This document shows, in pieces, positions 457-64,000 of a DNA stretch of 64,000 nt (position 1 is its first letter; every line of letters begins with the position of its first letter). A program made the translations under genes and the position numbers. Source of the DNA: Siphonodentalium dalli. Lineage: Eukaryota; Mollusca; Scaphopoda; Gadilida; Siphonodentaliidae. The stretch covers positions 19,826,134 to 19,890,133 of the forward strand of contig CP136065.1 in NCBI GenBank assembly GCA_032622095.1, given 5' to 3'. The notes under the pieces are model-generated. The model worked only from the letters and a program-made list of their open reading frames with translations. It searched no databases and was not told the origin of the DNA.

Positions 457-588
457 GCACCTTATAATACTGTTAAGTTCAGCATTGTTGGTGACATCAT
501 TGCTCAGTCTTATTTCCAAGTGGGACAGGACAGCGGAGAGATCAGATTGAGATCGTCACTGCTGCAAGACTCCAGAAATTCTTACACG
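457..588 (+). CDS. Unit 0, B exon only (457-588)
   Basis: Forty-four codons opening APYNTVKFSIVGD, followed by SYFQ, a G.I turn (SGEIRL) and the closing NSYT. This is the middle strand set of a cadherin domain whose start lies outside the window. The donor is gtgagc. It ends in phase 0 and joins the A exon at 1373. The LDRE position reads LLQDSRN, so the DRE calcium motif is absent. Confidence 0.88.
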
Positions 589-3500
589 GTGAGCTATGGC
601 TTAAAATTACCAGTACTCTCGCAGATATTTCAGTTTTTCACAGCTGGAAATTTGAAGATTTTATGCTACTGATTTGCATTTGTGATAAAAGAGACATCTT
701 TTCGTAACTATAGGCAATGTTGGATTCCAATGGGAGATAATAAGTGATAAGAAATTACTAGTAGGTGATATTTTCTTTCACAGAAAGAAATATTTCTAAA
801 ACGTAAATAAAATCATAGATAAGTTATCCTTGTCAAATGCCTCAAAAATGTTATTGTTAGATGTAAAAATTCTTATTTTGCAGCAAGAATTATAAAATTT
901 AATGTATTAAATTTAACCCTTCCATGGTTGGAGATTCCTGCAATTTTACGAAAACCCTGTGCCGCCGATGCATTCTCTTATAAGAGAATGCATTAGCCTA
1001 ACAATATTTAACTTGACCTTGTAAGCCTGTGCATTCTCTTATATATGTGAGGCTCACTATGTGATACTAGCATATATAAGAGAATGCACTGGCACAAGTT
1101 CTTTAATGCTGCACCTGCGCAGCTCCCATCATGCAAGGGTTAAAGGGGTACTATACACTAAATCTGGCCTTTTATGGAACCATCTCCTATTATACTCAAC
1201 AGAATATATGCAACAAATGAATAAATTTGAGCCATGGATTAGTGCAAAATACACTCATGCGCTCTATGCACGATGCAAACAACATGGTAATTATAATGAA
1301 AATTAAGTTATGACTCCAGTCATCTTTAAAGGTCAGGCTTAGACCATTTAACTGATGTGTTTGTTTCTACAGGTGAAAGTAAAAGCACAAGACCAAGCTG
1401 TGCCACCGAAGTCTGCACCGACTGCAACGATCACTGTGTTCGTGCAGAGAAACACCATAGAACCTTACTTCACCAAGAGCGTTTACATCAAAGAGATACG
1501 AGAGGATACCAATGTTAACTCAGACATCTTAGATGTTGTCGCCTCTGATGCTGATACCTCTGTGAGTTAACTACATGTAGATAAAGAACACGCACACTGA
1601 AAATATGCCGGACATGAAGTCCCCAGAGGGTGAATTTAGTAATGCTATCCTGCACAGTGGGCTAGCATCACTAAATTCACCCTTTTAGGACCTCTTTCTG
1701 CTTTGGCCTCGTCTCTCTGTCCAGAAAGTATCTTTAATATAAAATTAATAAAAAAAATTTAGTAGCAACTTCTTCAGAAAGATTATCTTTCACTCTTGAG
1801 TTTTTCAATGACCCCAAATTGGCAGATGACACATTTCATAATTGGGGTGCCCAATTGGTGTACATCACAATAATCTTCATCTGGGAACTTAAATCTGAGT
1901 CTAGGTCTCCCATAGTAGATGAGGCCGTACATATTTAGGTCCCCAGCTGATTAATTGACTGAGAATACTCTATCTCTCTGTTTCTGCCGTAACATTTATT
2001 ATCATATAAGATATATAAAAATGCAAAATAGGAGAAAAAATTACTATTTATAAATCAACTGATCATCCTCCATCCATAATTTGGGAACATCTGTAATTGC
2101 TGTGACTCATGTTATTCTTATTATAGAAATTGAAGTTAATTCTAATTATAAATAAATGTAAGTAACATTTATCAATTGTTTTGCAGTCTGGCTTCAACAT
2201 AGTGAGATACAGAATCCTTGGCGATGAATCGGCTCCCACTCTGTTCTCAATTTCATCAGGTGGTAGAATTCGGCTCATGCGATCACTGAGGAACACACCA
2301 GAGACATCTTACAAAGTAAGTTTTCATTACGTTCTAGATAAATCAATCATATATTAATCGCCATTTTGTTAAATTTGATCTACAGTTCCTTACAATAGGA
2401 ACTGATCTTATTATCACTTGGGAGTTGTTAACAATTCATGTTTCACTTGTGATATACATCAAAATATTGACCAACCATGTTTTGCTCGTCAAACTGAATG
2501 ACTAGCTTTAAGTGGGAGAAAATTGGTTAACAAATATTTCTTTTTAATTTCATCCCTTGCCAATGAAATTTGTAATTATTATAAATAACTATATTGTTAG
2601 GTTTGAGATTGTTAGCATTGAGATATATTTATTCTCTTCAGTAAACATTCTATTATATTGGAATTTCATAACTTGATCAAGTTTTAGATTGATTTAACAC
2701 AATATTATCTCATTATTCTAGCTCTGGGTTGAGGCATATGACAATGGTGTACCGTCAAAAACCAACACGACTGTTGTGACCATAAACGTGAACAGAAACC
2801 TTCACACTCCAGTGTTTGCTGACGTGTATCGAGTAGTCTCTCTGCTGTCTAATGTTGCTCTCGGCAACACTGTAACCACGATGAGCGCCTCTGATAATGA
2901 TAGACACAGCCCGTACAATACTGTGAGGTACACTATGACTGGAGGCAATGGTTCAAGCTACTTCACCATCAACCAAATATCAGGAGAAATATCCGTCATC
3001 AAATCACTCACTCTGAACACTGTCAATCAAGAGAGGAACAATATATTCATGGTAAGTCTGAATTGATTTCTGAAAATAAATCACGTGTTGGATAGCTAAG
3101 GTAATGATTTATCACCAGCCCAAATTTTCCAAATTAGGACTTGAGTAGTGATTCAAAATTTAGAAACATAATTTTACGGAATATAATCTAAATTAAGAAT
3201 TGGCCAAATTTGCATATTTGAAGTGATTTTCAATTTAATGTATTTTCTGTAAAATTTTGTTTCTAAAATTTGGCATGGTGATAGATTTGTCAAGTTGGAA
3301 CCAATAACTTGTATTCAGTGCTGCCGTTATTACATCTTTTTTTGTTTGTTATAAATTAGACCACAATCTTTTGGTTAGCTAAATACCAGTGAAGATCCTT
3401 GGACATTTTCTTGTCAATATCTTCTATATTATTTTTAGTATCCCTCCAGATATGCTAATATTATTACAATGAATAAGTCAAGAAATTGTCATCTATCAGC

Positions 3501-6500
3501 GGATATATTTATTGCCTTAACCCTTTACCCAACAGAACGGCCCTGGGCCAATGCATTCTCTTATATATGCGAGTCGACCATAGGTCGCCTCGCATATATA
3601 AGAGAATGCATTGGCTTAACACATTAAAAATTATAAAATTGTTAAAGAATGTAAGAAAAAATGGTAAAAAGAGTTAAAAAAAGATTTTTTTTAGGCCAAT
3701 GCATTCTCTTATATATGCGAGGCGACCTATGGTCGACTCGCATATATAAGAGAATGCATTGGCACAGGGCATAACTGTAACTATCACAATGTGGTCAAGG
3801 AGCCGGTTCCAATGATATCCATATTTGTATGGTTCTATTGAGACAGACCGAAGATATTTTAGGCTGTTGAAGCTTTATTTGCCCGGTTTTGCCCGGTTTT
3901 GGCCGGTTTGGTGGGTAAAGGGTTAAGTTCTCAACTCAGAATTTTTATTTAAATTAATGTCGACATGGAATAAGTTGGTGTCCTGAATAGGTCTTCAAAA
4001 TCACAATTTATCCTTGAAAAATTCTCATATTTTATACAATATACCAGTCCTTAATTTTCAATTTTTTCCACAGCTCGACGTTGACACCCATGACTTAGGA
4101 GTGCCATCCAGAGTAGCCTTGCAACAAGCTACTGTTATCTTCAATGTAACGAGGAATGTCGGTAGACCGTATTTCGTGGGCTCACCATACAGAGCAGTCA
4201 TAGATGAAACTCATCAACTGGGATCACTCGTACATAGAATCATTGTCGCTGATCCAGACAGTGTGGTATGTATAAAATTCAGACATCTCAAAAATATATA
4301 CAGACTCATGAGTAGAGTTCAGGCAATGGAATTTATAATTCATTTGATCGAGAGGTTTTCATATTGATAGTTCATTTTACAAATATTTGGTTATAAAAAA
4401 CAACATAATTTACTGATGCTTTTCACTTAAAATTTGGTGCATAAAATAATAAGTTTGAGTCAAAAATAAAATTTGATAAAAAAAATTTGTATTGTTAAAT
4501 AGCAGTGTTTCTAATTTCTACATATCTGGTTTTAAAATTTCGAAGAAAAACATGTTTATAAAAAATAAGGCCCTCCATTTGTTGCGGTTTTTCACAGAGG
4601 CTTTAGATGATAGAAATCATTGCTGGTTATTAAATGAAAAATTGATGCTAGTTTAACTGAGAGATACAAATGTTAGTGTCATTGACTATTCTAGATTTAG
4701 TTGATTCGTAATTTATTAAACATTGAGGTTACCTTTATTTCTTTCAGACTCCATTTGGTGTAGTGCAGTTGAGGGCCATCGGAGATGATACAGCGGTGAA
4801 TTATTTTGCCATTGACTCTCTTGGCAATGTTTCTGTTATTAGAGATCTACGACAGGACACTCTGTCTCATTATAGGGTAGGTTTTACTGATTGTTTGCAA
4901 ACATAATTTTGATAGAGTACACAGCTAGCTTGTTATTGAAAGACCAATTTACAGACATATTTTCCCAGAGCATCAGTCTTTAGAGACAAAGCACCAGTAA
5001 CCATCTAGTACAGCATTAAATATAATTTATTATTCATATTGCGCTGTTATTAGAATTTGAAGATTCACTCTGAAGCAAAGCCATGTTCAAATGGATAACA
5101 GTCTACTATTAGTTGGTGAAATGCTCTATTTTCAAGGAAGCATTAAAAAATCTGGGGTGAATTTCAGTAAGAATTGTGAAGCCTATTAGCATATATTTAC
5201 TGCTGAAGTGACACAAAAACTCCATCCCATCATTACAATGAACAGCAAATGCTGACTTTTGCATTTTTTAATCATTTTCAGATGAGAATTGAAGCAAGAG
5301 ACGGCGCTTCACCGCCCCTGAGTGCCACCACCCTGCTGGATATTACTGTTAGAAGAAACCTGTACAGACCTCAATTCATTCAGCAACAGTACGAGGTCAC
5401 CATTATGGAGACACATCTGCTACATACTGAAATCATTCAGGTAGCGGCCACAGACATTGATGATAAGGTGAATAGCAATCTCTATGTACAAGTAACACCT
5501 CTCCATGTGAGAAATTGCCTTTTGTTTGAAACTGTTCTTTATTATATGTCGTTAATAAATATTATGCAAATTGGTTTGTCTCCACTCTTTAAGTTTTGTT
5601 CTTTCACATCAATTTCCAGATTTTCCATGTTCCAATAATAGCAATAACAATCTCAACAAAATTAAAACTAAAAGGGCATGAAAGATTATGACTAATTAGA
5701 TGGAATCCTTAGAATTTTTTTTAATATATTTCTTTCTCTGATTTATCAATGACTTCTGTTTTTTCCACAGGCTCCAAATAATAGCACATCATACTATATT
5801 GTGCATGATCTGTCCAGGAATCATAACAATGGTTACTTCACAATCGATGAATCTAGTGGAAGAATTTACCTAAGGAAAGCTCTGCTGAATGACCCACTGA
5901 AAACACAACAATATGTGGTAAGTGCAATAATTATGTGCTATACACAATTTTTTTTACAGAAGAAATATCCGTGTTCAGTTTAGATATTATTCATTTTCAT
6001 TTGAATTGCATAAATTTGGTTAATTGTATTGCAAATAGTAAATAGTTAATCAACATCATTCAAATCATATGTCAATTCTTGATCCTATGTAGGATTTGTC
6101 AGCACCTCACTGTGGCCTCGGTGTGAAATATATGTGGCTGCATGCTGAATTAATATTATATCGGTTGCTTGGAGCAATGTGTGGGGATAATATTGTAATG
6201 TTTCGTTCTTGTCTGTCAACTCTACATCATGATAATATGATCATTATTATTATTAATTTACCGTACTTCTTATTTTGCAGCTGAATATAAGAGCTAAGGA
6301 CTTGGGTGTGCCTGTCTTGACAGCGCTGATTCCAGCCACCGTTACCATCAATGTTCTCCGCAATCTTTTCGAGCCATTCTTCGTGAGCACCAGTGTTGAG
6401 GTCACTCTCAACAGAACTGAGCCCATAGGAACATTGGTGCATGAAGCTACAGGCAATGACTTGGACACAGTGGTTAGTATCTGAAAACTAAGATTAAGCT

Positions 6501-9500
6501 TATCACTCACCAAGTTTTGAAACTTTGGCCTTCACAGTTGATATAAATTTTTAAGAGGAATGCAAGTGCAAAAATAATTTTACATTAACGCATGGCTTTC
6601 AAATTCTACAGGTTTTCATAATTTTAAATTTAACCATTTCATGACTGAAGCTTCCTGAAAATTTGCGGAAACCCTGCGCCAATGCATTCTCTTATATATG
6701 CGAGTCTCCCATAGGGAGCCTCGCATAGATATGAGAATACATTGACCTGACAATATTTACCTTGACCTTGTGCATTCTCTTATATATGAGAGGCTCCCTA
6801 TGAGAGACTCACATATATAAGAGAATGCCTGGCACAGGATCTTAATGCTGCTCCGTCATCAAAGGGTTAAGGATGTTTGGATTTTTATTTTTTGAAATTC
6901 TTTACATCAGGCAGCATTAAATTATTATTTGCTTCTGTGGGGCCCTGATAGCTCATTTGTTGAAGGGTAACAAAACTGACTTTGTCATAATAATGCCATA
7001 GCTGCTTAAAATGATTTAAAATTTTCATCTATTTCTACTTTGATATTTCATGTTGCATGCTGTTATTTTTCAGGATCCATTCAACCGACTGTCATACTTT
7101 ATACTCGGTGATGATGATGCACCAGTCGTGTTTAGTATTAACCAAGGGACAGGAACGATAATAACCAAGCAGTCATTGGACAACACCGCAAGGACAGAGT
7201 ATTATGTATGTATCCAGTATCTTTACCATATTATTTGTTTGTAATAATGTCTGTAAGGCAATTAAAATATAATATCTGTATTCTCAGGCAATTAGATCTC
7301 AATTATGAAATGAGGGAGAGAGGCTATTTATTTTTATTTTGTTCTCAAAATCTGGAAAACATACTTCAGAAAACAAAATAATCGTCATTCAAATCCAATA
7401 TTTCCAACTGAAAATATTGAAAAAAATGTTTGAAAGGGCTTTTTAAAAGAAAACTTCAGTGACGAGGGAAGTGCCTCAGAACACACAATTTTTATTTATT
7501 TGGCCTAATTGGACAAATTTAAATGACAGAATCTGGCCAAAATACCTGTAGCGTATCATTACCCATTAACACAGAAAAATCCAAGATAAAAACTTTGACA
7601 AAAATTCATCACTTGACTACAGACATAATCAATGCAATTCTTGGGCCAAAATTACTTTGCATTGGCACAAAGATGTTGGTATAATATTTAATGAGGTTAT
7701 TGCTGTTTTTCATCAAATTTTTCTTGAAGCTTATCTTGCTTGAGTCCAGTATTGACTCACAAATTATTGGAACTCACAATGTTCAATGCTTGAAGTCAAT
7801 GCGTTATTTAAAAGCTGTAAAATTGTCACAAAAAGTTATATACAGTTATTATTTTTTCTTTTTTGTAGATTCGAGTAGGTGTTCAAGATGGTGGAACTCC
7901 CCCAAAACAAGGCATCGTTGTCATTACGGTCAACATCAACAAGAACTTGTTTGCTCCAGTCTTTGTCAATCCTCAGTACACCAGAGTCATCACTGAGGTC
8001 ACTGTACCGGGCACTCTGTTGTTCACACTGATGGCTAGAGATTTCGATCAAGAGGTTAGTTTTATGTGCAGAAATTCTGTTGTTTCAATGTAATTTAAAG
8101 CTAAATTAGACTATTCTGAAATCTACTGAAAATACGTTTTGATGTTGGTGCTGAGATGAATATGTTTGCAACTTATTTTATTTAAAGCCACATTGTGTTC
8201 AAACATTTAGTATAACAATTTATAGCCTAAATTACTACTGAAGTTGTAATGTATCTGCAGTGTAAAAGAGAAACATAGATTCAAAACTTTCACCAATAGA
8301 AAACATCAACTAGTTAAGTTCAATATATCTATGTTAATTTTTTGAGTTTCAAAATGTCTCATAATTAATTTTTTTCTTTTATTTTTAGGCACCTTTCAAT
8401 CAGTTGAGATATTTCTGGAACTCTCAGACTGATTTATTCTATCTCGAGGAGAGTACAGGTCGGATAACTGTGAATAAGGATTTATATGGATCCAGCCAGA
8501 CTGAATTCAACGTGAGTAGTCACTATAGTAGAACAATAAAACTGGATGTACTTTATAACACATATATATTATTATATTATTACTGCTCATTGATATTTCC
8601 TTATGCTAGCATAATTACTTTGATATAAACTTAAAAGATGGAGTTGGAATAATGAGTTGAGTTTCTTATAAAACTGTGTAAATATGACGACATTTTACAG
8701 AAAAATAAACTTGTATATATGGACTTGTCTGCAACAAAAACATTGAGATCTGACTTTCTAACTCAGCTAGTTTAGGAGAAACCTGGCACTGAACTGAAAA
8801 AGTGATAATATTTTGACACCTAGATGGGTAGTTACTTAACTCGTAGTCATTAATTAAAAAGTTGTTCAGCAAACAATTTGCTCAACTTATTATCTGAACA
8901 TACATACAGATGAATGAATGAGCCACCATAACTAGATTCATTTGTCGTTACTTGATTCCCATTCATTTATTTGTAAAGATGTTCAGCTTATAAATTCAAC
9001 AAACATTTCAACTTGTTTTCTGAACAGTCCTACAAATGAATGAATGGGAATCTGGGGTGTTCCTCTACCAAAAGTTGGCTCAGTATTATCAGAACATCGC
9101 AAAAATGCAGAATAAACCATTACAATGTACAGTAATGCCAGGTAATGCCCTAAATAATCGACTCCTTAACCACAGCAGAATTATGTGAGAGCTTTCCGTT
9201 GAATGGCAACAAGCCATATTTCCGACTAAATCCTCAAAAATTACCGATAATTCTGCTGTGGTTAAGGAGTCGATTATTTAGGGCATTACTGTATACTTAC
9301 AGTAACTGAATGGGAGAATTAATTCAGACCTGAATGGGTTGGGGTTATTGGTTTGCCGATTCACTGACCTTTACTCTTGTTTATTCCAGTTTGAGGTGTA
9401 TGCACGTGACATGAATGGTGTTGGCTACAGCAGTCAAGTGATCCCTGTTCAGATTACCGTCGTCAGGAATGTCCATGCTCCTACATTCATAGATGAACCT

Positions 9501-12500
9501 TACACTACACAGGTCCGATCAGCCATCTTTAATGGTCAACAGCTGCTGGCCGTCCGAGCAACCGATGCAGATGTGCAGGTAAAATTCTAATTGAATTAAA
9601 ACATTATGTGAAACACTCATCAACACAGGCAGTGATATTTCTCAATATCGTTATTTTCACAAATATTACCAGTCATGTCTAAATCAAAGTCACTCTCATT
9701 TTCATTATTGTGGAGAAAAGACAAGCGCTATTTGGATATATGGCCACAGTACAGCACAGTATACTAATTTTCGTTTTGTTGCAATCTCGATAAAAAAAGT
9801 TGTCCCTTATTGCTGACCTTAAGCTTGATGTTCTTTCAGTGATACATGATTCTCATTTCTCTTCAGGCACCGTTTGGAGTTTTGCTGTATTCCATCATTT
9901 CGACTGATCCAGAGACTTCACTATTCAGCATTGATTCTAACAGTGGAATTATCAGACTCAGTGGTAACCTTGACAACCATGTTGCTGACATATTCAGGGT
10001 GAGCATTTAAACATTATAACCTAAGGTTAATCCTTCCATGACTGGAGCTTCCTGAAATTTTGCGAAAACCCTGATCCAATGCATTCTCTTATTTATGTGA
10101 GTCTCCCATAGGGAGCCTTGCATATATAAGAGAATACAGTGGCTGACCTAATAATATTTACCTTGACCTTATGGGAGACTCACATATATAAAAGCACTGC
10201 ACTGGCACAGGATCTTTAATGCTGCTCCCGTCATGGAAGGGTTAAAGATATATTGTGCACTTATTTTAGTGAATAAACCTGGTGGGTCACCACTACCAAT
10301 ACAAAATAGAAGAAGATTGCTATCAACTAATATTTGTGAAAATTTCCAATGACTGAACTCTGCACAATTGTAACTATATACTCCTTTATTCAGGGTGATT
10401 TATTTGGTAATAAGAATGATGTTATGTGCTGCCAAGTTGATATAAAATTTATAAGATTAACTACTTTTCCTATATACACACCACCAGATATACATGCTCA
10501 AATGTTTTCCAATAATGTCTTATAGAGAACTTCTCAGCTTAACAATGTGAAATAAGACATTTGTAACCTTGGTGTTCTCTTTTTAGGTGACTGTTCAGGT
10601 ACAGGATGGTGGATCTCCAGCGTTGACTGACGTAACTACTGTCTACATAAACATAACTCGTAACCTGTTTGCTCCGTCATTTATCCAGACTCAGTATTCA
10701 TTCACGCTGCTAGAATCACAGGCTTTAGGTGTGTCTATTGGCAAGGTGCTGTGCAGTGATAGCGACACTGTGGTAAGTCTATTCTTTGAGTATCTGAAAG
10801 AAAATAATCATCCAAAAATAATAGACCATCCTTGTTTTAACCCTTTCTATACTGAATGGATTCTCCCGCTCATTTATAAAAGTATACATTGGAATGGTCT
10901 ACTATTCATTTGGATGTTAAGGATATATGAGCAACCAACAGCCAGACAAAATGATAATACAATTGTGAAAGAATTCATATTCACTGTTGGTTATTGTTTA
11001 GATAATAAGTTCAACAAACGACCTATGGTTGAACTTATTATCTGAACCTTTCATAGAAAGGGTAAAAAGCAAATTATGATTTTGAAAGCCAATCATTTTT
11101 GCTTTTGTTCATTTCTCAAAACTAGGTTAACAATTTATATTATACACTATGCATCAATTATGAAACATCATTGTGTTTCCTTTTGTTATTGATTGGTATA
11201 AATTTGATATAACTATGTTTCAGCGCTAAGGTTGCTTACACTTAAAATACAACCATGTTTATCTGTTTTCTTGTAGGGCTCAAATGGCGAGGTTGTATAC
11301 TACTTGACCAGTCCTCCAGCTAATTCTCCTGTAGATAACGGCAGATCTCTGATTACCATCAGTCGATCCACAGGCGTTCTCTCTATATACAGACCTCTGT
11401 ATGAAGGATCAGATGCTGTATATACTGTAAGTACTATGTTCATCTCCAGTATCTACATCTAAAAGAACTTTTTATATATCGATACCCGTGTTAGCGGCTG
11501 AAATAATTCATTGTGACCTGTTGTGACAGACTTATTTTGCTATTTCCTGATAAACAAGCATTGTATATCACTGTCCACTGGAGTCTCTTTAAAAAGATTA
11601 TGATAATCCTAACGGATGTACATCTCTAGATATGTCTACTAAATTTCATTTCTACAAAGACGCGGCATTCCCAACATGATGTAATAAACCATTTCCAAAT
11701 ATGGAGTGCATTCCTGGCGTTTTGTGAGAATCGTAGTATTTAGAAATAGTTATAAATACAACAAGATGCGAAAGAATAATCAGTAACAAATATCGTTGAC
11801 TGATAAAAACTCGAAGATGATGTCTCCTATATTGCGATGAGTAAAATGAGTTATGGATATATCACCTGTATTTAACAATAGTTGAGTTTGACAATGTGTG
11901 GGAAACTTGTCAACATGACATTGACCTCTGATCTGTGAAGCGATCTGTTATGCCATAAACCAATGTAATCACGCTCATGCTTCGCCACTCTCCAATGATA
12001 TTGAGGGAATCACATCAAATCAGTAACTGATAATGAATGAGATATCCAGAGACATAAGTATTGTAAAATGTTCATCAGCTTTTTAAAGATACTGTGTTCA
12101 CTGACAGTCACTCTCTTTTCCATTATTATATAAGGAAATTTAAAGAGGGCATCACAAGTCTTAGAAACCTACAGACAACAATTTTTCAGCAATAAGCCAA
12201 TTTTTATGGTAAAATATTGAGTGCTTACTTTGTCACTGGAAGATTTCTGAATTTTGAATCATATTTTTCAGGTTTATGTTGCATGCAGGGACATGGGTTT
12301 TAACTCACAGGTGGCTACAAACATAGCTTCAGTAAGAGTGTTTGTTACAAGGAATAACAATTCTCCATCATTCCAATTGTTACCATACAGGACAACAATA
12401 AGACGTGATATTCAGACAAGCGCTAACATCTATACTGTTTCTGCGACAGATGCTGACACCACCGTGAGTTTGAAATTCTACTTAAGAGGTATCTTTTGTT

Positions 12501-15500
12501 TTGATTAAATATTTGAAGTTTTTTATTAAAATAGTAATTTTATTACTCGATAAAAAAAAAAAAAATCTGTTTCAACTTAGTTAGGTATTTTTAACTAGGA
12601 TATCTTATTTTAACTTGTATAAAATTTATATCATAATGTGTATGTGTTTAATTTATCTATGTATTTGTTTTACAGTTGGTCAAATAGCTCTTCAGAGCCT
12701 GTGTTTTTAACGTTTTTTTACCTCTGACTTTAAATAAAATTTATCTTATCTTATCTTAGTTGTAACTGTATAGTTTGGAGAAATTTCATACCATGTTACA
12801 GTAAATTCACCTTCAAACTTTGAAAATAGGAGGAAACTATCGGAACTGATATCTGACATTTTATTGTTTAATGTCATGCTGTTTCTGTTTTAAAGTAAAA
12901 AACATGATGTTGCTTTTCCTTTTCAGAGTCCATATGGTGATGTATCATTGAGTATTATTGGGGACGGATCTGCACCGTCACTGTTCAGGTTGGAGCAGAA
13001 TGGAGCTGTGTTCGTTCGAAGTTTGTCAGATCTGTTAGCTGATGGAAACTCTGCATACAATGTAAGGCATCTATGAAATATATTAATTTATTTTAAAATG
13101 GTCTTTTAAGACAAATTAATTTTTCTTATTATCTTTGCTTTCTGAAACCATTAACACTTTCAGTGCCAAGTCCGATTTTTGTATCAACCCATATTTCCTT
13201 GATCATTTTTCAAATTTATTGATTATAATAATGTGATACATTGATGGAAAGAGCTCTACAGTCTTATTTGTGTCTCAAATTTGTTTCTAATTTCCATATC
13301 TTTTGTTTAGTGTTAACCACACAAGATCTTTATAACATTTAGCAATTAGGTTAAACAATTTTGATTGTTTAACATAAGTTCCCATGTCATATTTATTTAA
13401 ACCTTTAAATATAAAAAACAAATTTATATTCCAGTTGAGAGTATTGGCCGTTGATGGTGGCTTTCCACAAAGAAGTGCTACATCAACCATCGAAATAAGT
13501 TTCATCAGAAACATTCATGCCCCAATTTTCGAGAACCAGAATAGTATCAGCATACCTTTGCTTGAGGGAGAACGCATTGATGCACTGATCACACAGGTCA
13601 AGGCCACCGATGCTGACCCTGAGGCTCCGAACAATGAAATCAAGTACACCATCATTGGAGAGGGTGATGCTGCTAGCTTCTTCTATGTTAATCCACTCAA
13701 TGGAAAGATAACTCTATTGAGGTCTCTGTCAGAAACACAGGCTTCGGGATTCAGGGTGAGTATGTTGTTCAAAGGGTCCAATTCTTAAGCATAGCTCTTA
13801 TGTTTTAAAAATCTGTAAATCATTTTAGTTTATTATGGACATGCTCAAGTCATTTAATTTTGGCTATTGCTTAGGGGACAAAATATCTTTGGTCCAATGA
13901 TATTTTTATGAATAAAATTGATTTCAACGATTTCAACATGATATTGTGAGTTTTTTATCACTGAGGTAATTTTACTCATCACACAAGTAGACTAAGAAAT
14001 TTCACTAGATATCAGTTTTGAATTTGTTTCTAGTATCTGAATTTTAGAACTAAATTGGGTTTTGTTGCATATGTTAATTTATTTTTGAATTTTGTATTGA
14101 CAGATTCATGTTGAAGCGAGAGACAATGGATTACCTCAGCTAGTTGGTCGTACCTTTATCGATGTCACAATGATAAGGGATGTATCCAGTCTACAGTTTT
14201 CATCTGCCATGTACACTGTCGAGATCTCAGAAAGCAGGACTCGTGGAACGCAAGTCATCACAGTTACAGCACAGCCTGGGGTAAGTTTAGCACAATTTAT
14301 AGAATCATTATCAGTGATTGAGTGATCCATGGGAGGGTTGTTCTTCTATCTCTGTTTGGCTATTGATTATAATAAATGAATTTGGTTGGCTGATACATTC
14401 TCTGTACAAGGCTTGAATGGAAGGAAAAAGCACACAATTATTTCTTAGACTTGTGTGAGAAATTAGTGATATTTCCGTATGTTGTACCGCTGGGTCTAAT
14501 GTTACGATAAAATCCACAACAAACGTAAATTGGGTTCATAAAGTGTATTGCGTATAAAGACATTCGGCACAGCACAGCAGCTAATATAAAAGATAAATCT
14601 GTAAAATGAAATTCGAAATTAAAATTTAAGTTGTTTTTCATGTTGTTTAGATGAAGGCTTCCCTTATGACTTCTCTCGAATTAGCTGTATAATTTAAGTT
14701 GTTTTTCATGTTGTTTAGATGAAGGCTTCCCTTATGACTTCTCTCGAATTAGCTGTATAATTTAAGTTGTTTTTCATGTTGTTTAGATGAAGGCTTCCCT
14801 TATGACTTCTCTCGAATTAGCTGTATAATTTAAGTTGTTTTTCATGTTGTTTAGATGAAGGCTTCCCTTATGACTTCTCTCGAATTAGCTGTATAATTTA
14901 AGTTGTTTTTCATGTTGTTTAGATGAAGGCTTCCCTTATGACTTCTCTCGAATTAGCTGTATAATTTAAGTTGTTTTTCATGTTGTTTAGATGAAGGCTT
15001 CCCTTATGACTTCTCTCGAATTAGCTGTATAATTTAAGTTGTTTTTCATGTTGTTTAGATGAAGGCTTCCCTTATGACTTCTCTCGAATTAGCTGTATAA
15101 TTTAAGTTGTTTTTCATGTTGTTTAGATGAAGGCTTCCCTTATGACTTCTCTCGAATTAGCTGTATAATTTAAGTTGTTTTTCATGTTGTTTAGATGAAG
15201 GCTTCCCTTATGACTTCTCTCGAATTAGCTGTATAATTTAAGTTGTTTTTCATGTTGTTTAGATGAAGGCTTCCCTTATGACTTCTCTCGAATTAGCTGT
15301 ATAATTTAAGTTGTTTTTCATGTTGTTTAGATGAAGGCTTCCCTTATGACTTCTCTCGAATTAGCTGTATAATTTAAGTTGTTTTTCATGTTGTTTAGAT
15401 GAAGGCTTCCCTTATGACTTCTCTCGAATTAGCTGTATAATTTAAGTTGTTTTTCATGTTGTTTAGATGAAGGCTTCCCTTATGACTTCTCTCGAATTAG

Positions 15501-51500: not shown

Positions 51501-54500
51501 ATATAATATGATTAAAATACTATAATTCATCACCATTTGAAACGTCTGTGTCTCAGAAGATGCTCATAGAGAAATAGAAAACAGCTGAAATCAAAGAAAG
51601 AAACTTAAGCACAAAAACATGTTGGTAACTCAACAAAAAAACAACATGTTCACAGTTTATTACACCGGATAAGTTGATAATACAATATTTTGCAGCTTCT
51701 TCTTTTAAATGGTATATAATATGGCATATATTTTATGTATGTGATATGGGGTTTCGAAAATTAAGTGGGCCTTTAATTGTGACTGTTTTCTCATTACTAT
51801 TTATTCAACTGTGTAATTAATGGATAATTTTCTTTCTTGCAGGGATTTATCTTATACAAGACTAATGGAGATGAATCCGGACCATACTATTTTAGCATTA
51901 ATGAAACAACAGGTCATATACAGCTCCGCAACAATTTGAAGACTGATGGGAGATTCAGCTATGTGGTACGTACATGTCTTATTTATAACACATACATATC
52001 TCAGCAATAATGTGAAGTCTTATACACCAGTTATCGTTTTAGCATAAATAGAAAACCGCATCAATTGAAGTCTAAAGATCAATGTTCTGTGCCGCATGCA
52101 CAATAGATCTGTTGATTGGGAAGCCAAATTTGCTGGTGAATTTTAATATGCTAGATTGGATTATTTTAATAAATTCTGAATGTTACTATTCCATGAACTA
52201 AGATTCAATCATTGAAAGCGGTTATTGGCTGCATAAATTGAATCTTATTAATTATGAATTTATTTTGACTATCGTTTAACCCTTTACCCAACAAACCGGC
52301 CAAAACCAGCCAAATAAAGCTTCAACAGCCTAAAATATCTTCGGTCTGTCTCAATAGAACCATACAAATATGGATATCATTTGAACCGGCTCCTTGATCA
52401 CATTGTGATGGTTACAGTTATACCCTGTGCCAATGCATTCTCTTATATATGCGAGTCGACCATAGGTCGCCTCGCATATATAAGAGAATGCATTGGCCTA
52501 AAACAAAATCTTTTTTTAACACTTTTTACCATTTTTTCTTACATTCTTTAACAATTTTATAATTTTTAATGTGTTAAGCCAATGCATTCTCTTATATATG
52601 CGAGGTGACCTATGGTCGACTCGCATATATAAGAGAATGCATTGGCACAGGGCCCTTCTGTTGGGTAAAGGGTTAACAGATAAGAATATGGAGATCATTA
52701 CTCAGCTAGATGTATATATGTTTTGTTTGATTTTACTTTAGCTTACTGTTGCTGCTTATGACTCGACTCGTCCTAGCGAGGTATCGGAAGTTGAAGTGAG
52801 AGTGTTTGTTACGAGGAACGAGTTCTATCCGGTATTCAGCAGTGCGAGATATGTGGTTGTTATCAACGAGACAAAGCCAATTGGATCGCTCATACAACAT
52901 GTAACTGCCACGGATCAGGATGGTGTAAGTATAATATATATCTTTTGTTCTCATGATCTCATCTCAACTATTAGCCCTTTCTATACTAAAGCATTATTGA
53001 CGGGTAGTTATCCAATAGGAAATGTTCAGATAATAAGTTCAACAAACAGGTCATTGAACATTTCCCTCAATAAATAGGGCTCCTTCTGCACCGTTATTGA
53101 TCTCTCTACTACTTTTATCATCTTATCATCCCTCCAAATCAATAATAGACCATTCCGATATACACTTTTTAACTGACTGGGAGAATATATTTGGTAAAGA
53201 TAGGGTTAACTGAAATAACACACAAATTCTTGTTCTGATACATAATCAAATTATAGTCTATTTTAAAGGGTAGGGTCTAATGTGAATGTTCAAACTGGCT
53301 TAAAATAAATATCATATATACTGTCAGTAACTATGATGGGAAATGGATTTATATGGCTAACTACTTAAATCACTCTGAAAATTTGTATGATGAAATGATT
53401 ATTTTGTTTATTTAATACATATTTTTTGCTAACCATTTTCTTCTCAATCCAAATTCTGAACGTGCGGAAACCATGTACTGTGATTTATATAAATCTTCTT
53501 TGTAGGATCGAATAACATTCTCTGCAATCGGTGAAGCAGATGCTGTTGATTTGTTTTATCTTGGTACCTCAAATGGAGAAGTGACTGTCCGCAGACCTCT
53601 GTATCTTGCCATCAAAGGCGAATACAGGGTGAGTTCATTTCTAATATTAGATGTATCTGATTTATATCTTAGTATTGATGACGCTTGACAACATAAAGTG
53701 TTTATATATAATTGCTAAATTGTCATCTACAGCTTTTGAATATGGCATTTTTCTTCCACTGCATTACTTTAGAATTGCATTAACCCTTTACCCAACAAAC
53801 CGGCCAAAACCGGCCAAATAAAGCTTCAACAGCCTAAAATATCTTCGGTCTGTCTCAATAGAACCATACAAATATGGATATCATTGGAACCGGCTCCTTG
53901 ACCACATTGTGATAGTTACAGTTATGCCCTGTGCCAATGCATTCTCTTATATATGCGAGTCGACCATAGGTTGCCTCGCATATATAAGAGAATGCATTGG
54001 CCTAAAAAAATCTTTATTTAACACTTTTTACCATTTTTTCTTACATTCTTTTAACAATTTTATAATTTTTAATGTGTTAAGCCAATGCATTCTCTTATAT
54101 ATGCGAGGCGACCTATGGTCGACTCGCATATATAAGAGAATGCATTGGCACAGGGCCATTCTGTTGGGTAAAGGGTTAAATTCTATATTGGTATCTTCAG
54201 CTTTTTCTACGGCATTGTCTTTTGCCATAGCTAATTTCGAGATCTGCTTCTATACCACTGTCTATACAGTTAATTCAGAAGTTATTGTAACCATCTTCTG
54301 TAAAATCAGCTTTGTTGTTTCTCTCCTTTTTTCTTATTTCATATCAACGATCTGATATGCTGCTGTGCACAAGATGGTGTTCTTTGTCAAAAGAACAGAC
54401 TAGACTGATTGATATGTTCATTTCTCTTACAAAATTTAGCCAAATGATTTTAGTAGATAATATTATCTAAATAAAGGGAATATTTATTTCATTGGATTAT

Positions 54501-57500
54501 GCTAAAAAAAAACATTTTGAGGAAATCTTACATAGGCATGAATACTATGAATATTTCTATAACTTTTTCTAAATATTTTTAGATGGTTGTTCAAGCGTCG
54601 GACAACAGTAATCCACTGAAGACTGCAGTGGCTGATGTGATCATCCAGGTGATAAGAGACCAGGAAGGTCCTCTATTCCAGCTGCTCCCATACAACGTTA
54701 TCATTCACGAGAATGCTGCTGTCGGCACAACAATCACCAAAATCTCTGCTACAGACAACGATCTTGTGGTGAGTGTATATTAAGAGTTTTATTAGGAGTA
54801 ATGCGCAGTAGTACTTTAAATTAGTTATATGCTCTTTACTTATTTCAGCACTGGTGTTCACATAATTTATAGTTGGTCTTTTTCATATAATAACAGATTG
54901 GCTTAGATAAATCACTGTCCCTCACAAGTCATTATTTTCTCTGTTAACAGAACATACAACTGAAAATTAAAATAGTCAGAAATCAAAATTTCAGATAATT
55001 TCAGTATGGGATTTATCTACTTTGAGGAGTCTATCACACCATTCCGTAAAATAATGGGAATAACATGGGATTTATCTACTTGCTGCAACCAATTCTAGCT
55101 CGAATGTTACTGTGATTCTCGTAGAAGTTTTAGGAAATAATTTTAAAAAAAACATTTCTCCACCGATATCGTCAAAGAACATACTCCTTAATACAAATAA
55201 TACAGGAACCAGGTCATTCCATTCATTGCCCATTGTAATTTCATTACCCATTGTAGTCGAGCCTAATGAAAGGAATCACCCTAACGTGTTTCATCCTGAA
55301 TAAAGATAACATTTGAATGTTATTTCGTGTTTTACAGGAGAGAATACAATATGAAATGACCGGTGATTTTAATGTTATTTCGTGTTTTACAGGAGAGAAT
55401 ACAATATGAAATGACCGGTGATTTTAATGTTATTTCGTGTTTTACAGGAGAGAATACAATATGAAATGACCGGTGATTTTAATGTTATTTCGTGTTTTAC
55501 AGGAGAGAATACAATATGAAATGACCGGTGATTTGGCTGCGAGGACTTTCTTCACACTAGACCAGCAAACAGGAGAGATAACTCTACTAAGAAGCTTCAA
55601 GACTGACGGACAGTTTAGAGATACATATATGGTGAGATATTAGACTGCCTTTTTAATATTATTTTCTGGCCTTCGATTCATATTCATGTAGATGTTTGTG
55701 TCAAAACTATGCATGATGATACCCCTAAAATTTACATTCATAGATTGCATGATGATACCCCTAAAATTTACATTCATAGATTGCATGATGATACCCCTAA
55801 AATTTACATCCATAGATTGCATGATGATACCCCTAAAATTTACATCCATAGATTGCATGATGATACCCCTAAAATTTACATCCATAGATTGGCCATAAAA
55901 GACAGCTTTTCTCAGCTCCTTAGTCTGTCCCACTTGAATGTTGCCAATAATCTAGTAGTGAATTTTTAATGTTGTAAATTGGTTTGTTTTTGCAATTTGT
56001 GTTTGAATGATTGTGTAGAAGGAATATTGTTGTCTGAATTGGTGGATAAATTTTTCCTCATACCCAAAGTTAAAAAAATTAAATCCGCTTTGATTGCTTT
56101 TTAGATACAGCACATAGAGAATTTGATAATTAATTTATGACTATTGTTTATTTTCAGGCCATGGTGATTGCATACGACACAGCCAGACCAACCAATGTTG
56201 CCTCAGCTTCAGTTGTTGTGAATGTCAATCGTAACATTAACAGACCGAAATTCACCCGAGCCTCATCATATGTGGTGACGATCCCTGACACCACATCCAT
56301 CGGGTCAGCTGTCATGAACATCACCGCCACGGATGACGATCTAGGGGTAAGCTTCTCATTTAACCCTTACTATGCTAAATACTCATTAATGACTGAATAG
56401 CTCCCTTGTTCAGATAATAAGTTCATCAAACAGCCATGAATAATATACTTTCAATATGAATCATACGTGACACATAGTGGAGCAACCACACACGATGTGC
56501 CTCAAATTTGCTTTATATCGACAACATAACGCTAATAATAATTTATGTACAGCACACACGATGTGCCTCAAATTTGCTTTATATCGACAACATAACGCTA
56601 ATAATAATTTATATACAGCATGCCATGCCCCGGTGGAGACGACATGGCAAATATTGTCATGGATTCTGCAATCTTGTCTGGATTCTGGCCTGCAAAGCCA
56701 ACATGACGTAAATGACGTCATGAACCATGTCATAAAGTCTTCTCTGGTTTCCTTTAAGCTAACTAACGAAATTGGTCTAAATGAAATAATATGCCTAAAT
56801 CACATCACCTTGAATCTACTGGAGCATCAGATCAAGAGGCGATAAAATGAGAGGACCCAAACAATGAGAATGTTATATCTTTGTATGACAGCATGTTTAA
56901 CTTAGAGTGGGATACAAACAGACTACATAGAGATTCGACAAAGCTACATTGATTAATTCAACAAAGATAATGTTATGTTGAGTTCTATAATAAGTATGTT
57001 TATATCCTTACTTCAGGATGTGGTAACCTACAGTATAACGTCTCAGCAAACATCTCCAGTAACACTGATGACAGCCACAAACGACTTCTTCATCGATGGA
57101 ACCACTGGAGTCATCCACCTGCGACAAGATCTCATTAATTTTAATGTGGATGAGTACAGAGTAAGTCTCTGTTCACAAATACTAACACACACACTAAAAA
57201 CACATTTATGCTATTCATTTTTTAGAAGTAGTGTTTTATTCAAATATTAAACATAAAATAAATTTTTATCATTTGTCCATCTGACATTTAACCCTTTGGC
57301 AGGTAGATCAACATTTTGACTTTGAAAAATCATATTTACATTGATTCGTGCTTTTAATAATATTGTTTGTATAATAAATTTGTTAACGTCATATATGACG
57401 TACTCACCCGCCAAATGCTAACTATTGTAATGCGACTGAAGCTTTTTCCGAGTGATAATACTAACAGCGTTATGTCTCTTGTCACAGCTTCAGATTCGAG

Positions 57501-60500
57501 CGTATGACAGTGGAAACCCGCAGAAATCTGCAGACATAATCGCTCGGGTGCTGATCACACACAACATACACATTCCTGTGTTTGGCCAGTCTTCATACGT
57601 GAAGCAGATATCTGAAAGAACCAGCGTCAAATCTACAGTACTCCAAGTTAACGCAGTCGACAGGGATCTAAAGGTTTGTCTGAAATCTTGGCGTACTCAC
57701 TTAATTTACGAAACTGGTTCGACTTTGCTTTTATTCAGATTTATTTATTTATTTGCTTTCCTTCAAGTGAATCTACAACAAAATATCATTTCAAAGATGT
57801 AGGTGAAAAATTTAGCTGAGAACAAATAAAATTAAATCTGTTAGATCGAACGTTGAATAGCAGAGGCACATTCAACATCAAATTGAATCTCTAAGCTTCG
57901 CAGGCTGTTAGATGTTTCTAACTAGATTTCTAATGCTATTTTCAGGGTGACATTGTCTACAAGATGTTACTACCAGGGTCACCATACTTTCAAATCCACC
58001 CAAATACAGGAGAGATAACTCTGCAGACAACACTGTTGCTTGGAATACAGTCGACCTTCACAGTAAGTAGTGAAATTATAAATGTCTCGTTAGATAAGTG
58101 CATGTGCAGCATTAAAGATCCTGTGCCAGTACATTCTCTTATATAAGCGAGTCTCCCATAAGGAGCTTCGCATATATAAGAGAGTGCACTGGCTTACTAT
58201 GTCAAGGTGAATATTGCAAGGCCAATGTATTCTCTTATATATGCGAGGCTCCCAATGGGAGACTCGCATATAAGAGAATTCTTTGGAACAGAGTTTTCAC
58301 AAAATTTTGGGAAGCTCCAGTCATGAAAGTGTAAAGGGGGATATCTGGACTAGCTTTGTCCATACTTGTTCTACCTTTTATTCCTTCTTTTCTTTTTCAA
58401 ACATGGAACAAATATTTACCAATAAGGGAACTAGTGTAACTGCGATTGTGAAATTAGTCAGATTTAAAAACTTTTCATTACCACTTCTCTTTCAGTTTGT
58501 TGTTAAAGCATTTGACACCAAGGATCAAGGCAGACCAGGTTTTGCTAATGTCACCATCTTCGTCGTGAGAAATCCAAGTGGACCTAGCTTCATTCAGGAT
58601 CCATACGAGATCACGATCAGAGAATCATTCGAGCTCGGTCATACCGTCATCAATGTACAGGCCCAGGATCCAGATAATGTAAGCATTAGTTTGTTACTAT
58701 CCATTAGGGCCATGCGAAGCTTCTATTCATGAATTGGGCTGTCGATTCAATTCGATCATAGGATTTGAATATTTTATTTCTTGTGGGTGAAAAAGAACAA
58801 GAGGTTGAAGATGTTAAATATCAATATCTCACTTGATCAATCAAATGTAGGGAGTAATTGGGAAACATTAAAATATTTCACAAATGCACACAGTCTTGAT
58901 TAATAAAACACAAACTGTTTTATGCTGACTATGACTGCGTTTGTTGAATGGTATTAGCAGAGGTGATTTAAAGATAATTGTTTGGATAATTTGTTAACTC
59001 AGGGTATATCCTGCCCGCTATGTGGAAACCATGACCGATTCTTATTAATTTTGTGTTATTTTATCTCTATTTCTAGTATCTGTTTTGAACTGTTAGGTAA
59101 AATGTTTCAAAATCTAATAGCCATTCCTTCACCATAGACTGACATTTTGTTGCAGGATGTTGTGAGATATTATATTGCAAGCAACGATTTGGCCAGAGAT
59201 TTCTTCCATATTAATCCAGAGGATGGAAACATCACTCTCATCAAACCACTGACTGGCAACAGCGTGCCACGATTCACTGTAAGTATAAAGTTATGATATA
59301 GGTCATTAAAAACGATCTGCTCTGAGGTAATTTGCCAAAAACAGTTTGATGAAGCAATACTTTTCATTTTTTATTTTATGTAAGCCGGAAATCATATCTC
59401 AGAATTAATATTACACCAAACATGTTATACTACAGAATTATTCAAATATTCCATTAAGCATTGATATAATTTATTTTGTTGTTGGTGCTGCTTACTTGGC
59501 AATATTATTTAAACTGGTCATATTTAGTCATATGTTACTTCTAATATAATACACCGTTATGTTGCTTTTTAAACTTGGAAACAATTCACTTGAACATAAG
59601 AATGTGTTTATTTCAGATGCGAGTGTCGGCTTCAGATCAGAAACTGATTGAGAAGGAAGGTAGTGCTAGTGTCATCATTAACGTCCTACGTGATCTTAAC
59701 CGTCCCTATTTCACGACATCTCCCTATAGAAAGGACATTCATGAGGAGACTGACGCCAGCACCGTTATTCTCACCATCGAGGCTAGGGATGATGATCTTA
59801 GGGTGAGTCTCCTTATATATATATATTTTTTTTATTCAAATGGTTGCAATAAAGAAGCTATTTCCAAGCTAGAATGCATTATCAGCTAACTGCAACCTCC
59901 TATCGTGTATCAATTATTATAAAAATTAGACAATAAAGACTCAGTGTTATTGCATATTGAATAAAGGTGTGTGATATATTAGTGTACAGTAATGCCCTAA
60001 TTAATCAACTCCATAACCACAGAAGAATTATGGGTAACTTTTCAGGATTTAGTCGGAAATATGGCTTGTTGCCATTCATCGGAAAGCTCTCCCCGAGAGC
60101 TTTCCGATGAATGGCAACAAGCCATATTTCCGACTAAATCCTGAAAAGTTACCCATAATTCTGCTGTGGTTAAGAGGTCGATTAATTAGAGCATTACTGT
60201 TTATATATTTGGTATTCAAACGATTGCAATAAACAAGCTATTTCCAAGCTAGAATGCATTATCAGCTAACTGCAACCTCCTATCGTGTATCAATTATTAT
60301 AAAAATTAGACAATAAAGACTCAGTGTTATTGCATATTGAAACTTATTGCTTTATTTAATAATGGTGTGTGATATAATACTGTACTTCTGTTACTTGGGA
60401 AAATCATGTAAACCAAGTAACGCCTGAATGGATTTTTCCTATTTTTAAATTTCTAAAGAAATACATTGGAATGATGTATTTTTTTCACTTGTAGTAATGT

Positions 60501-63500
60501 AGCAATGATAATATCAGTAGACATCTGGAAACTCTATGGATTTTGAGGCTGTTTGTTGAACTTATCACCTGATCTTCCCTACAAATGAATGAATGGGAAT
60601 TAAGAAACTACCAATCCGTGTATCCAGTTATCAAAGATTAACGTAATGCATGTTAATTTATTTGCAGGGTGAGATTCGATACCAAGCCACAGGTATATAC
60701 CCAGCACAGAGCTTCTTTGACCTTGACCCTGTAACTGGTCTGATAACTCTCCTGAGGAAGCCATCAACAGATGCCCTAGAGCTCGGATCTTACACGGTAT
60801 GTGCTATCTTAAATCAGTTTAATAACTTTACTTGTATGAAATATTATCAGTTCTTTCACATGTATTGCTGTGGTCAGTTTTTGGGAGTAGGCATGGAAAC
60901 ATTATAGTTAGATATGTAACATTATAAAAATATTTGCAATTAAACTATGGAAGTACAAACTTAATTGGTCTTTAAGTGCATGATGTTCAATATTCTCAAT
61001 TAATTGTTTTCTTGGTGACAACTTACTTGAAAAAATAGATAAAGTACCTGGTACTGATTCAATGGGAATCAAATAACTTTTCACCAGCAGCTTTCAGTAT
61101 CAAAGGGCAAATATTAATATTCATAATTAATTTCTCATTGTATATCATTACAGTTGAGGGTTGCAGCATATGACACAGAGTATCCTGACAACAAGGTGTA
61201 CGAAGACGTCATCATCACCATTCTGCGTAACGTTAACAGGCCAGTGTTTCAGCCATCAGCAACGTATGAGCGAAGCATAACAGAGTCTGCGTCAATCAGC
61301 ACAGTGATTCTCACTGTCGGTGCTAAAGATCTCGATTCTAAGGTTTGCAATCTTGTCACTTTTACCATCTTTCCCAACCCCATATTTCAGGGCTTACTTT
61401 TCCACACAAATCGCTGAATAGAATCGCGTAAAGATTCGCATGACCAACTCTGGCTAGAATAAAAACTGATTCCTGCAATTTCCAACATTCGCGTAGACTC
61501 TTTTTCTTGGAATAATATTAGCTGTAATTTGGCTGTATAAAAAATTTCATAAAAGGGAGACAGAATTGTCCTTTATTCTTGATAATAGACAGTACTGGAT
61601 CTGAAAATATATTATGCTCAAGTAAATAATTAGAACTTTACTGTAGAACACAAAATATCAAGGACATTTTTGGAGTTGAAATCATTTTAAGGATGATGTA
61701 TCTGGGTTATAATGAGTTTCTCTTTGATTGTGCATTATGAATTGAGACTGCATCATATGTTAAATAGCACACTATATTTGTATTGACACTGGCGCCGTTA
61801 AGTATCCTATCTTTATATTTTAATTATTTCTGACTTGCAGGATACAGTTTCATTCGGAATGTACAATTGGACATCTGAAGTGACTAACTTTTTCTATTTG
61901 GATGGAGCAAGTGGTGCTATTACAGTGAGACATGATCTCACCACGGCTCCAGTCAACACTTATGATGTGAGTATGCACTGATCACCCTTAAACACTCTTA
62001 CATTTATAACTATCAGTTGTTTGAACACTCAAGGAAACAAAATGTGTGAAAATGAAAAATATACTTCTCAGCTTTCAGTTTTACAAGCTTATAACAATAG
62101 TGATTAGAAAAATGGAAAGAATAATTTCAACATGTTGAAAAAAGCAGCCAAAGATTCATCTAGATAGAGTCATTGCATGCAAAACTACATATCGAAGAGT
62201 ATGAAATGAATTCCCAGAAAATAATCATTTTCTGTAGGAGAAAAGTTTCCACAGCAAGAATGTTATTACATTTGAAATTATTTTCAGATGTTTGTTGCTG
62301 CCCTCGATGGAAGAGGTAAAAAGGCGATAGCATCAGTTAGAATAAACATCAACCGTGAATTCGACCACCGTCCAGTTTTCCAACTCAACCCGTACAAAGC
62401 GACAATAACATACAGACAAATGGTGAACAGCACAGTTCTGACAGTCCGAGCCACGGACAGGGACCTGCAGGGCGCACTGCTGTACCGAATCACTGGATAC
62501 TGGCCAGCTACGGAATATTTCGGACTATATCTAGTTAACGACTATGCACAGATCTATCTTAAGAAATCGGTCAGCAGTGATACATTCAGGTCTTTGCTCT
62601 ACATGGTGAGTTTAACTGAGTTTACCCTTTGAGATACAAACTGTACAATCAGACAACAGGCAGATAAACATTTTTTGGATTCATTTATAGGAATATTCAG
62701 CTAATAATGCTGTTTGTTGAACTTAATAGCTTAACTAACTAATTGCATTGTCAATATTAGTGGCATTTTAAGAAATACTGGATAAACATCGCTGTGTAGA
62801 AAAAGTTACTTAACAATAATGTCTTACTAGTACATCTGAATAATATCTTTACTGAAGAAAACCAAATTTTATCACCAAATTAATACTGGTTATATGAATT
62901 TTGTTATCTCTACAGATTCACCTTGAAGCTTATGACAGTGCCGCACCACAACTCACAGGCGAGAGTGTCGCAGAGATCACAGTAAACAGAAATCCGAATG
63001 CACCTCTGTTCACAAAACAAGTGTACCAGCTTACCATATCAGAACTCGTGAAGCCTGGCTCCCTGGCTGTTACAGTTACGGCTAACGATCAGGATGGGGT
63101 GAGCATTATTATTATTACTTTCAAAAGGTTGCATCTATTATTATGATTAAATAAGTAATTACATCGAAAAAAAACTTAGACACTTTCCCTAATCTCTTTC
63201 CCAGCCTATGACATTGATCAAGATGCTGACGAAATCAAAATCCTATCCCATACTTTTGTTATAGTACAGTTTACTGATATAGATAAACAATTTATAGTGA
63301 GCGATAACTAATAGGGATATCTTTCTTGAATGGCTGATGAGTCAAAATTGACTCAGTCCAGGTTTTCTCTCCAAATTGAGTTTTGAGATTTATAATGAGA
63401 AATTGAATTTCATTTGATTATGTTTTACTCTCTTGACTTATATAAACTATTTATTCGTACAGGATGTACCGAGATATGAGATTGTACAGAATGCTGAAGG

Positions 63501-64000: not shown

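Follow-up and report, generated by a model that had tools for sequence, protein, structure and literature searches.

The 64,000-nucleotide stretch analyzed here (hereafter the window, C5:19826134-19890133, in a genome of 2.23 Gb in 9 contigs) lies in the middle of a single + strand gene that encodes a giant membrane cadherin of about 85 EC repeats (an estimate for the whole protein), in which 74 consecutive linkers deviate from the canonical cadherin pattern in the same manner. Judging from the ligand columns, the loss is selective: calcium sites 1 and 2 have been taken apart, but the side chains of site 3 are kept. The explanation that we consider probable, if far from assured, is that each of the 74 modified joints would hold one calcium ion, at site 3, with an arginine probably taking over part of the role of ions 1 and 2, and that the array would serve as a spacer. 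A previous reading of the window from its letters alone (the sequence-only reading) had predicted fewer calcium ligands and a separate signature, both of which are supported by the sequence comparison, and a rod with weakened calcium binding and flexible joints, which appears too simple because the site 3 side-chain ligands are intact in 68 of the 74 linkers.

The profile-guided exon model of the window comprises 87 exons with GT-AG junctions, which are in phase 0 at both ends and free of stop codons. Two exon types alternate: A exons (about 62 amino acids) encode the end of one repeat, the linker and the start of the next repeat, and B exons (about 43 amino acids) encode the repeat middle. 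Full A exons with a linker number 46 and B exons 47, with seven exons being fusions of the two types (six A+B and one B+A) and the last exon cut by the window end. Every repeat is split by introns, and no frame holding two whole repeats was found in the gene region. Two pieces of the encoded protein, together 1,649 of the 4,963 residues in the window, were scanned against Pfam, where PF00028 matched nine stretches in the first 1,017 amino acids (E 1.6e-103) and six stretches in one 632-residue piece, scoring 339.8 and 198.8 bits, respectively, against the curated cut-off of 28.8. The span of 1373-63594 previously given for the array is correct in that the first A exon begins at 1373 and the last B exon that is complete ends at 63594, but the array itself continues past both ends of the window. 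When 30 kb upstream and 40 kb downstream were added, the run of 74 consecutive modified linkers extended from window coordinate -12798 to 87422, bounded on both sides by repeats with canonical-type linkers. In the flanks, exons correspond to profile matches whose ends were simply extended and are modelled less carefully than those of the window; no match accounted for the B exon expected between 71911 and 73006. The array as a whole, its ends in the window and fused exons are:

457..64000, + strand: cadherin array, 87 exons, 4,963 residues (exon model, Pfam PF00028)
1373..1561, + strand: first A exon, with linker V-Q-R-N-T-I-E-P-Y-F at 1442-1471 (exon model)
2722..3051, + strand: fused A+B exon without an intron between A and B; linker VNRNLHTPVF (exon model)
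13435..13755, + strand: fused A+B exon; linker FIRNIHAPIF (exon model)
31227..31538, + strand: fused B+A exon, with repeat middle and end, linker VNRNLNQPIF and the start of the next repeat in one frame (exon model)
62916..63098, + strand: last complete A exon, with linker VNRNPNAPLF at 62982-63011 (exon model)
63463..63594, + strand: last complete B exon of the window (exon model)

The consensus of the 74 linkers is [V/I]-x-R-[N/D]-x-x-x-P-x-F. The spacing previously proposed, with two residues before the proline (V.R[ND]..P.F), has no match in the six frames of the window; over the entire array, 69 of the 73 linkers counted have three residues from N/D to P, as in canonical DxNDN. A six-frame search of the window with [VI].R[ND]...P.[FW] produced 36 matches on the + strand and one on the - strand, compared to averages of 0.0 and 0.1, respectively, over 20 random sequences matched to the window in dinucleotide frequencies. 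The replacement of canonical DxNDN by RN or RD, the central observation of the sequence-only reading, holds: D.ND[NH].P.F has no match in any of the six frames, of the 46 linkers in the window, 42 have Arg at the motif position and 45 have N or D immediately after it. Across all 74 linkers, a basic residue is present at this position in 71 (R 66, K 3, H 2), with one T, one P and one linker lacking the motif. Linkers of the window that depart from the consensus include:

7869..8054, + strand: A exon, Lys instead of Arg (INKNLFAPVF; linker alignment)
19812..20114, + strand: fused A+B exon, Thr instead of Arg (NVLTDIAPTF), an Asp-type linker one residue shorter before P (linker alignment)
37553..37741, + strand: A exon without the R[ND] motif (NAYFPNVKIPTF; linker alignment)
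57488..57673, + strand: A exon, His instead of Arg (LITHNIHIPVF; linker alignment)
62288..62605, + strand: fused A+B exon, linker INREFDHRPVF of canonical length, with Arg at the first-Asp place and Asp further on (exon model, linker alignment)

In the profile alignments, the modified linker is one residue shorter than the canonical one, the shortening falling before the Asn. The Asn of DxNDN thus keeps its usual spacing to P-x-F, with the Arg directly beside it. In an alternative reading that is less in line with these alignments, which anchor the Asn, Arg would have replaced the first Asp of DxNDN outright; the two readings differ solely in which residue was deleted. The linker at 62288 differs from the neighbour-Arg pattern in both its length and the place of its Arg. 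In its conservation, the Arg column comes close to the Asp, Pro and Phe columns of the repeat. Since the linker Arg is written with all six of its codons across the 74 linkers, and pairs of repeats average 26-30% identity, this residue is old and held in place.

Linker columns were assigned to calcium sites 1-3 using E-cadherin numbering. This assignment draws also on passages of PMC5120219 and PMC8691648. Among the 71 scored linkers, the acids of sites 1 and 2 are present as follows: XEX in 57, the Asp of DRE in 5, the Glu of DRE in 38, the first Asp of DxNDN in 4 and the second in 9. No linker has all five, and the maximum is three, in 4 linkers. The claim that the LDRE site had been lost thus stands for the Asp column, which is acidic in only 5 of 74 B exons (3 of 47 in the window), but only in part for the Glu column, which is acidic in 39 of 74, 37 of these being Asp. 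In the window, the latter count depends on the anchor: 22 of 47 B exons when anchored on the preceding Leu, 14 of 45 on the closing Tyr, where the column is blurred, and 15 of 42 with a cruder pattern. Canonical repeats of the same genome, picked by pattern (n=20), have an acidic residue at the DRE Asp in 18 cases and at the Glu in 17. Given the XEX acid in 57 and the DRE-Glu acid in 38 of the 71 linkers, a partial site 2 is also possible.

For site 3, the side-chain ligands scored were the linker Asn (here N/D), both Asp of DXD and, in the repeat that follows, the XDX Asp. The 68 linkers mentioned above have the complete set (44 of 46 within the window), and two linkers (84740 and 87422) are not scorable. 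Column by column, the XDX Asp is found in 69 of 73 linkers of the array, the first DXD Asp in 71 of 73 and the second in 70 of the 70 aligned there; in the window, both Asp of A.D.D and the Asp of A.D.G are each kept in 44 of 46 linkers, in agreement with the retention of these acidic sites previously noted. The remaining four linkers (14104, 41047, 73006 and 82283) lack the XDX Asp and a full DXD together, and none loses just one of the two; at 82283, the first DXD Asp is kept, the second is lost and Ala stands instead of Asn. The exons 73006 and 82283 terminate right there at GTGAGT donors. If the losses were independent, the chance of such joint loss would be 1e-6 over 72 linkers and 0.001 for the two window cases alone. 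The linkers 14104 and 41047, although separated by 18 repeats, match each other better than any other, and their losses may represent one single event. The window exons involved are:

14104..14280, + strand: A exon, RD linker MIRDVSSLQF, with AQPG at the DXD place and Lys at the XDX Asp of the next repeat; site 3 lost as a block (column tally)
18974..19291, + strand: fused A+B exon, Lys at the XDX position (VASKS), partner of the loss at 14104 (exon model, column tally)
41047..41349, + strand: fused A+B exon, RD linker IIRDEGQLRF, with AQPG at the DXD place and Ser at the next XDX; site 3 lost as a block (column tally)

The joint loss of DXD and XDX is, in our assessment, the strongest evidence that the two still form a working cross-domain site. 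It bears directly on the possibility of flexible joints with little or no calcium, in which DXD and XDX would be kept only for the folding of the repeats. Such a protein would account for the incomplete set of site 1 and site 2 acids in all 71 scored linkers; however, each of the four linkers without a full DXD also lacks the XDX Asp of the same repeat, which is encoded by a different exon some 50 residues downstream, and both are present in 68 linkers, so DXD and XDX, lost or kept together, behave as one site. Furthermore, according to passages of PMC5120219, the calcium-free linker EC9-10 of PCDH15 has lost XEX, DRE, DxNDN, DXD and XDX alike, whereas the linker N/D, DXD and XDX are intact in 68 of the 74 linkers of the array. 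We therefore regard calcium-free joints as unlikely, although deserving serious consideration.

Under the preferred explanation, with sites 1 and 2 dismantled and the site 3 ligands kept, each joint would hold one calcium ion, and the basic residue, Arg in most linkers, would sit where ions 1 and 2 would be. Cadherin rigidity is attributed to the calcium ions at the linkers. The Arg probably assumes part of the role of ions 1 and 2 by pairing with the remaining acids in putative salt bridges, with the XEX Glu as a partner, often joined by an Asp at the DRE-Glu column or by the linker Asp, never by both. The array as a whole, largely built of two-repeat super-units, would be a long spacer between the membrane and a tip whose linkers are of the canonical type.

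The repeats resemble canonical EC repeats (PF00028; Fat, Dachsous, CELSR and protocadherins) in the A.D.D and A.D.G acids and the P-x-F start, and the best PDB sequence matches are CELSR1 chains. They differ in having x-R-N/D-x-x instead of DxNDN, in the loss of the DRE Asp and in the incompleteness of the site 1 and 2 acids in every linker scored. Fat4 (34 EC) and Dachsous1 (27 EC) likewise carry very long EC arrays on a membrane anchor, but in these two proteins as many as three calcium ions are bound at most linkers according to passages of PMC9935876, whereas in the present gene the middle repeats have the RN linker. Loss of calcium ligands, leaving a linker wholly or partly calcium-free, has been described for PCDH15 EC9-10, DN-cadherin EC2-3 and PCDH24 EC2-3, in each case at single linkers, and calcium-free linkers are characterized in passages of PMC5120219 as lacking a common sequence motif; here, in contrast, 74 linkers in a row share one motif and keep the site 3 ligands (68 of 74). 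In a simulation described in passages of PMC8691648, rigidity persisted in a linker that has only sites 2 and 3, so the loss of sites need not mean a floppy joint. Among the deviant linkers of these passages, some retain sites 2 and 3 and the others have none of the three, and a lone site 3 is without precedent there. A search of the open-access literature did not find the RN/RD signature as a described family, and the RN joint looks like a new kind of cadherin joint. The array supplies a recognizable motif where calcium-free linkers have been described, in the passages of PMC5120219, as motif-less; moreover, 74 joints that drop the ligands of two of the three sites alike, with a conserved basic residue, amount to a natural experiment on which ions are essential.

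The two linker types are not distributed at random with respect to the DRE-Glu column. Over all linkers, D or E after the basic position never co-occurs with an acid at DRE-Glu (0 of 14, vs 38 of 57 Asn-type linkers, p 3e-6). In the window, where the pattern was first seen, the counts are 0 of 9 vs 21 of 36; in the flanks, they are 0 of 5 vs 17 of 21 or, without 63938, which had been seen earlier, 0 of 4 vs 17 of 21 (p 0.006). Because the DRE-Glu column is non-acidic in 19 of the 57 Asn-type linkers, its acid is not a universal partner for the Arg. From 41714 to 78268, 30 linkers alternate, with the Asn type in 15 of 15 in one slot and the Asp/Glu type in 12 of 15 in the other, as exemplified by the following exons:

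42909..43094, + strand: A exon, RD linker, DRE-Glu column non-acidic; first Asp-type linker of the alternating RN/RD stretch (column tally)
45595..45780, + strand: A exon, RD linker, DRE-Glu column non-acidic (column tally)
48412..48597, + strand: A exon, RD linker, DRE-Glu column non-acidic (column tally)
54583..54768, + strand: A exon, RD linker, DRE-Glu column non-acidic (column tally)
59617..59802, + strand: A exon, RD linker, DRE-Glu column non-acidic (column tally)

In each of two successive blocks, the first 36 exon pairs and the 30 that follow, repeats at even lags resemble one another more than those at odd lags (0 of 2000 permutations equally extreme in either block), and the last seven pairs lack a two-repeat period (468 of 2000), so that the period covers the first 66 of 73 pairs. 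Because RN and RD alternate within a two-repeat super-unit, the 14 linkers are not 14 independent events and the exclusion is confounded by descent; it fits both one movable acid near the Arg and two inherited repeat types. Best-matching repeats are often separated by even distances, e.g., 16-26 repeats, which suggests later block duplications.

Comparison with other cadherin sequences of the same genome sets the signature apart. Among 39 other cadherin linker matches at 13 loci (L038-L050), 35 have D.ND, the exceptions being NNNIP, AANLN and NHIP (two of these three at a match edge) and ALND. For the loci picked beforehand as canonical (L047-L050), the count is 26 of 29; for L038-L046, classed only after the linkers were seen, as was the split of L031-L046 into RN-type and canonical loci, it is 9 of 10. 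The linker DRNDN of L040 was examined as a transitional form and rejected since, once placed in register, it proves to be canonical, its Arg occupying a free position. The array L047 (C1:189691200-189693850) is canonical with two deviant linkers, RSNNNIPQF, in which Arg stands at the first-Asp place, and EAANLNRPAF. On contig C5, the cadherin matches listed include numerous reading frames that are open over about 900 residues, a protocadherin-like size.

A second giant gene with the same signature (L011-L030) occupies C5:106897900-107143800 on the minus strand, about 245 kb, and the 22 linker exons sampled from it have R in 19, H in 2 and S in 1. Dispersed RN-type loci account for 8 of 8 matches at seven places on C1, C3, C4 and C6:

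L031-L037, dispersed RN-type A exons (TRNNAAPVVVGTYPG or close): C6:199413850, C6:199038070, C1:29838647, C1:91259937, C3:156632404, C4:211753998 and C4:211645970

The second gene and the dispersed loci were drawn from the 150 matches listed for a query that itself carried RN, so this sample leans to RN; the same query also returned canonical linkers among these matches. The dispersed copies share 80-97% DNA identity with the query copy (C6:199413850), and the sequence beside that copy, which matches at least 34 further places, is probably an interspersed repeat.

These comparisons are relevant to the view that the RN/RD signature is functionless and was merely inherited as a two-repeat ancestor expanded. 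The even-lag likeness of the first 66 exon pairs is what such an expansion would leave, but the preservation of Arg in 66 of 74 linkers, with six codons and despite the low average identity of the repeats, argues against inheritance alone, as does its recurrence in the second gene (19 of 22) and at the dispersed loci (8 of 8, with the RN bias of the query); we consider this view improbable. Complete calcium sites rebuilt from other residues, with normal binding despite the altered motif, appear quite improbable too. Glu or Asp does occur at the second-Asp position in 9 of 71 linkers, and the last DxNDN residue binds via its backbone whatever its side chain, according to passages of PMC8691648; however, no new column among those tallied is acidic in most repeats, and the new conserved residue, basic in 71 of 74 linkers, should disfavour calcium at sites 1 and 2.

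The two ends of the gene lie outside the window, and their exons were read from open frames, with the predicted signal peptide and membrane anchor identified by hydropathy only. Upstream, a hydrophobic N-terminal stretch is located near C5:19796600. Eight further linkers on this side, read by eye, include four of the D.ND type (DDNDN, DVNDM, DINDN and DMNDF), three that are partly acidic (DGDDL, QVNDF and DKQDA) and one, SGGNT, that is not; inspection by eye of an additional 30 kb upstream revealed no more clear exons. Downstream, a linker VEDQNDNSPTF is followed by a transmembrane stretch (21 residues, mean hydropathy 3.05) and tail-like frames with two candidate C-terminal ends, NPVYEE-stop and TTTTL-stop. 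That the locus consists of decayed or misassembled fragments rather than a working gene is very improbable, given the 87 window exons that chain in phase 0, stop-free and with splice sites, and the hydrophobic N-terminal stretch, transmembrane stretch and tail-like frames at the expected ends.

The termini point to a possible relationship with Protocadherin-15 (Drosophila Cad99C), with which this gene shares a single transmembrane stretch. The second linker of the gene, DGDDLGPAF, is identical in its first seven residues to the second linker of PCDH15, DGDDLGPMF. Among the PDB matches of the N-terminal query, the best six of seven were all PCDH15, albeit weak (best E 0.017); with longer N-terminal queries, CELSR1 came first by summed score, and in one of them only PCDH15 chains had a stretch that passed alone. 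The membrane-adjacent candidate exon near C5:19917726 produced no Pfam match and no convincing PDB match. The gene possibly belongs to a PCDH15-related subfamily, although PCDH15 has 11 EC repeats according to passages of PMC5120219, whereas the present gene is estimated at about 85, with 74 RN-type linkers alone. Protocadherin-15 is reported absent from one mollusc in passages of PMC10734073; speculatively, such genes might have been overlooked inside giant arrays.

More tentatively, and going beyond the preferred explanation, the RN joint might constitute a new joint class with a built-in cation, in which the Arg would stand in for ions 1 and 2 and form salt bridges with the XEX Glu and a movable acid (Asp at the DRE position or in the linker), and the single site 3 calcium would act as a switch. 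More than 60 such joints, some of them in the alternating RN/RD arrangement, would form a rod whose stiffness responds to calcium weakly or over another concentration range, in a descendant of a PCDH15-type ancestor whose array grew. With 4.5 nm per EC repeat, the length of this putative rod would be roughly 0.4 micrometre.

Several repetitive elements lie beside the exons. At 55311-55534, a 55-base unit is present in 4.1 copies (99% matches) and contains the splice acceptor and the start of B exon 55503; the acceptors are accordingly repeated in tandem and near-identical, and the exon model takes the last one. Directly after this exon, at 55710-55891, a 36-base unit occurs in 5.1 copies and is open on the minus strand. 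Introns across the window contain an interspersed element, e.g., at 3549-3761, 24907-25119, 26447-26660, 52431-52644 and 53935-54147. A 21-base pattern for the frame QCILLYM of this element occurs 38 times, on both strands (expected 0), and its copies often form inverted pairs 44 bases apart.
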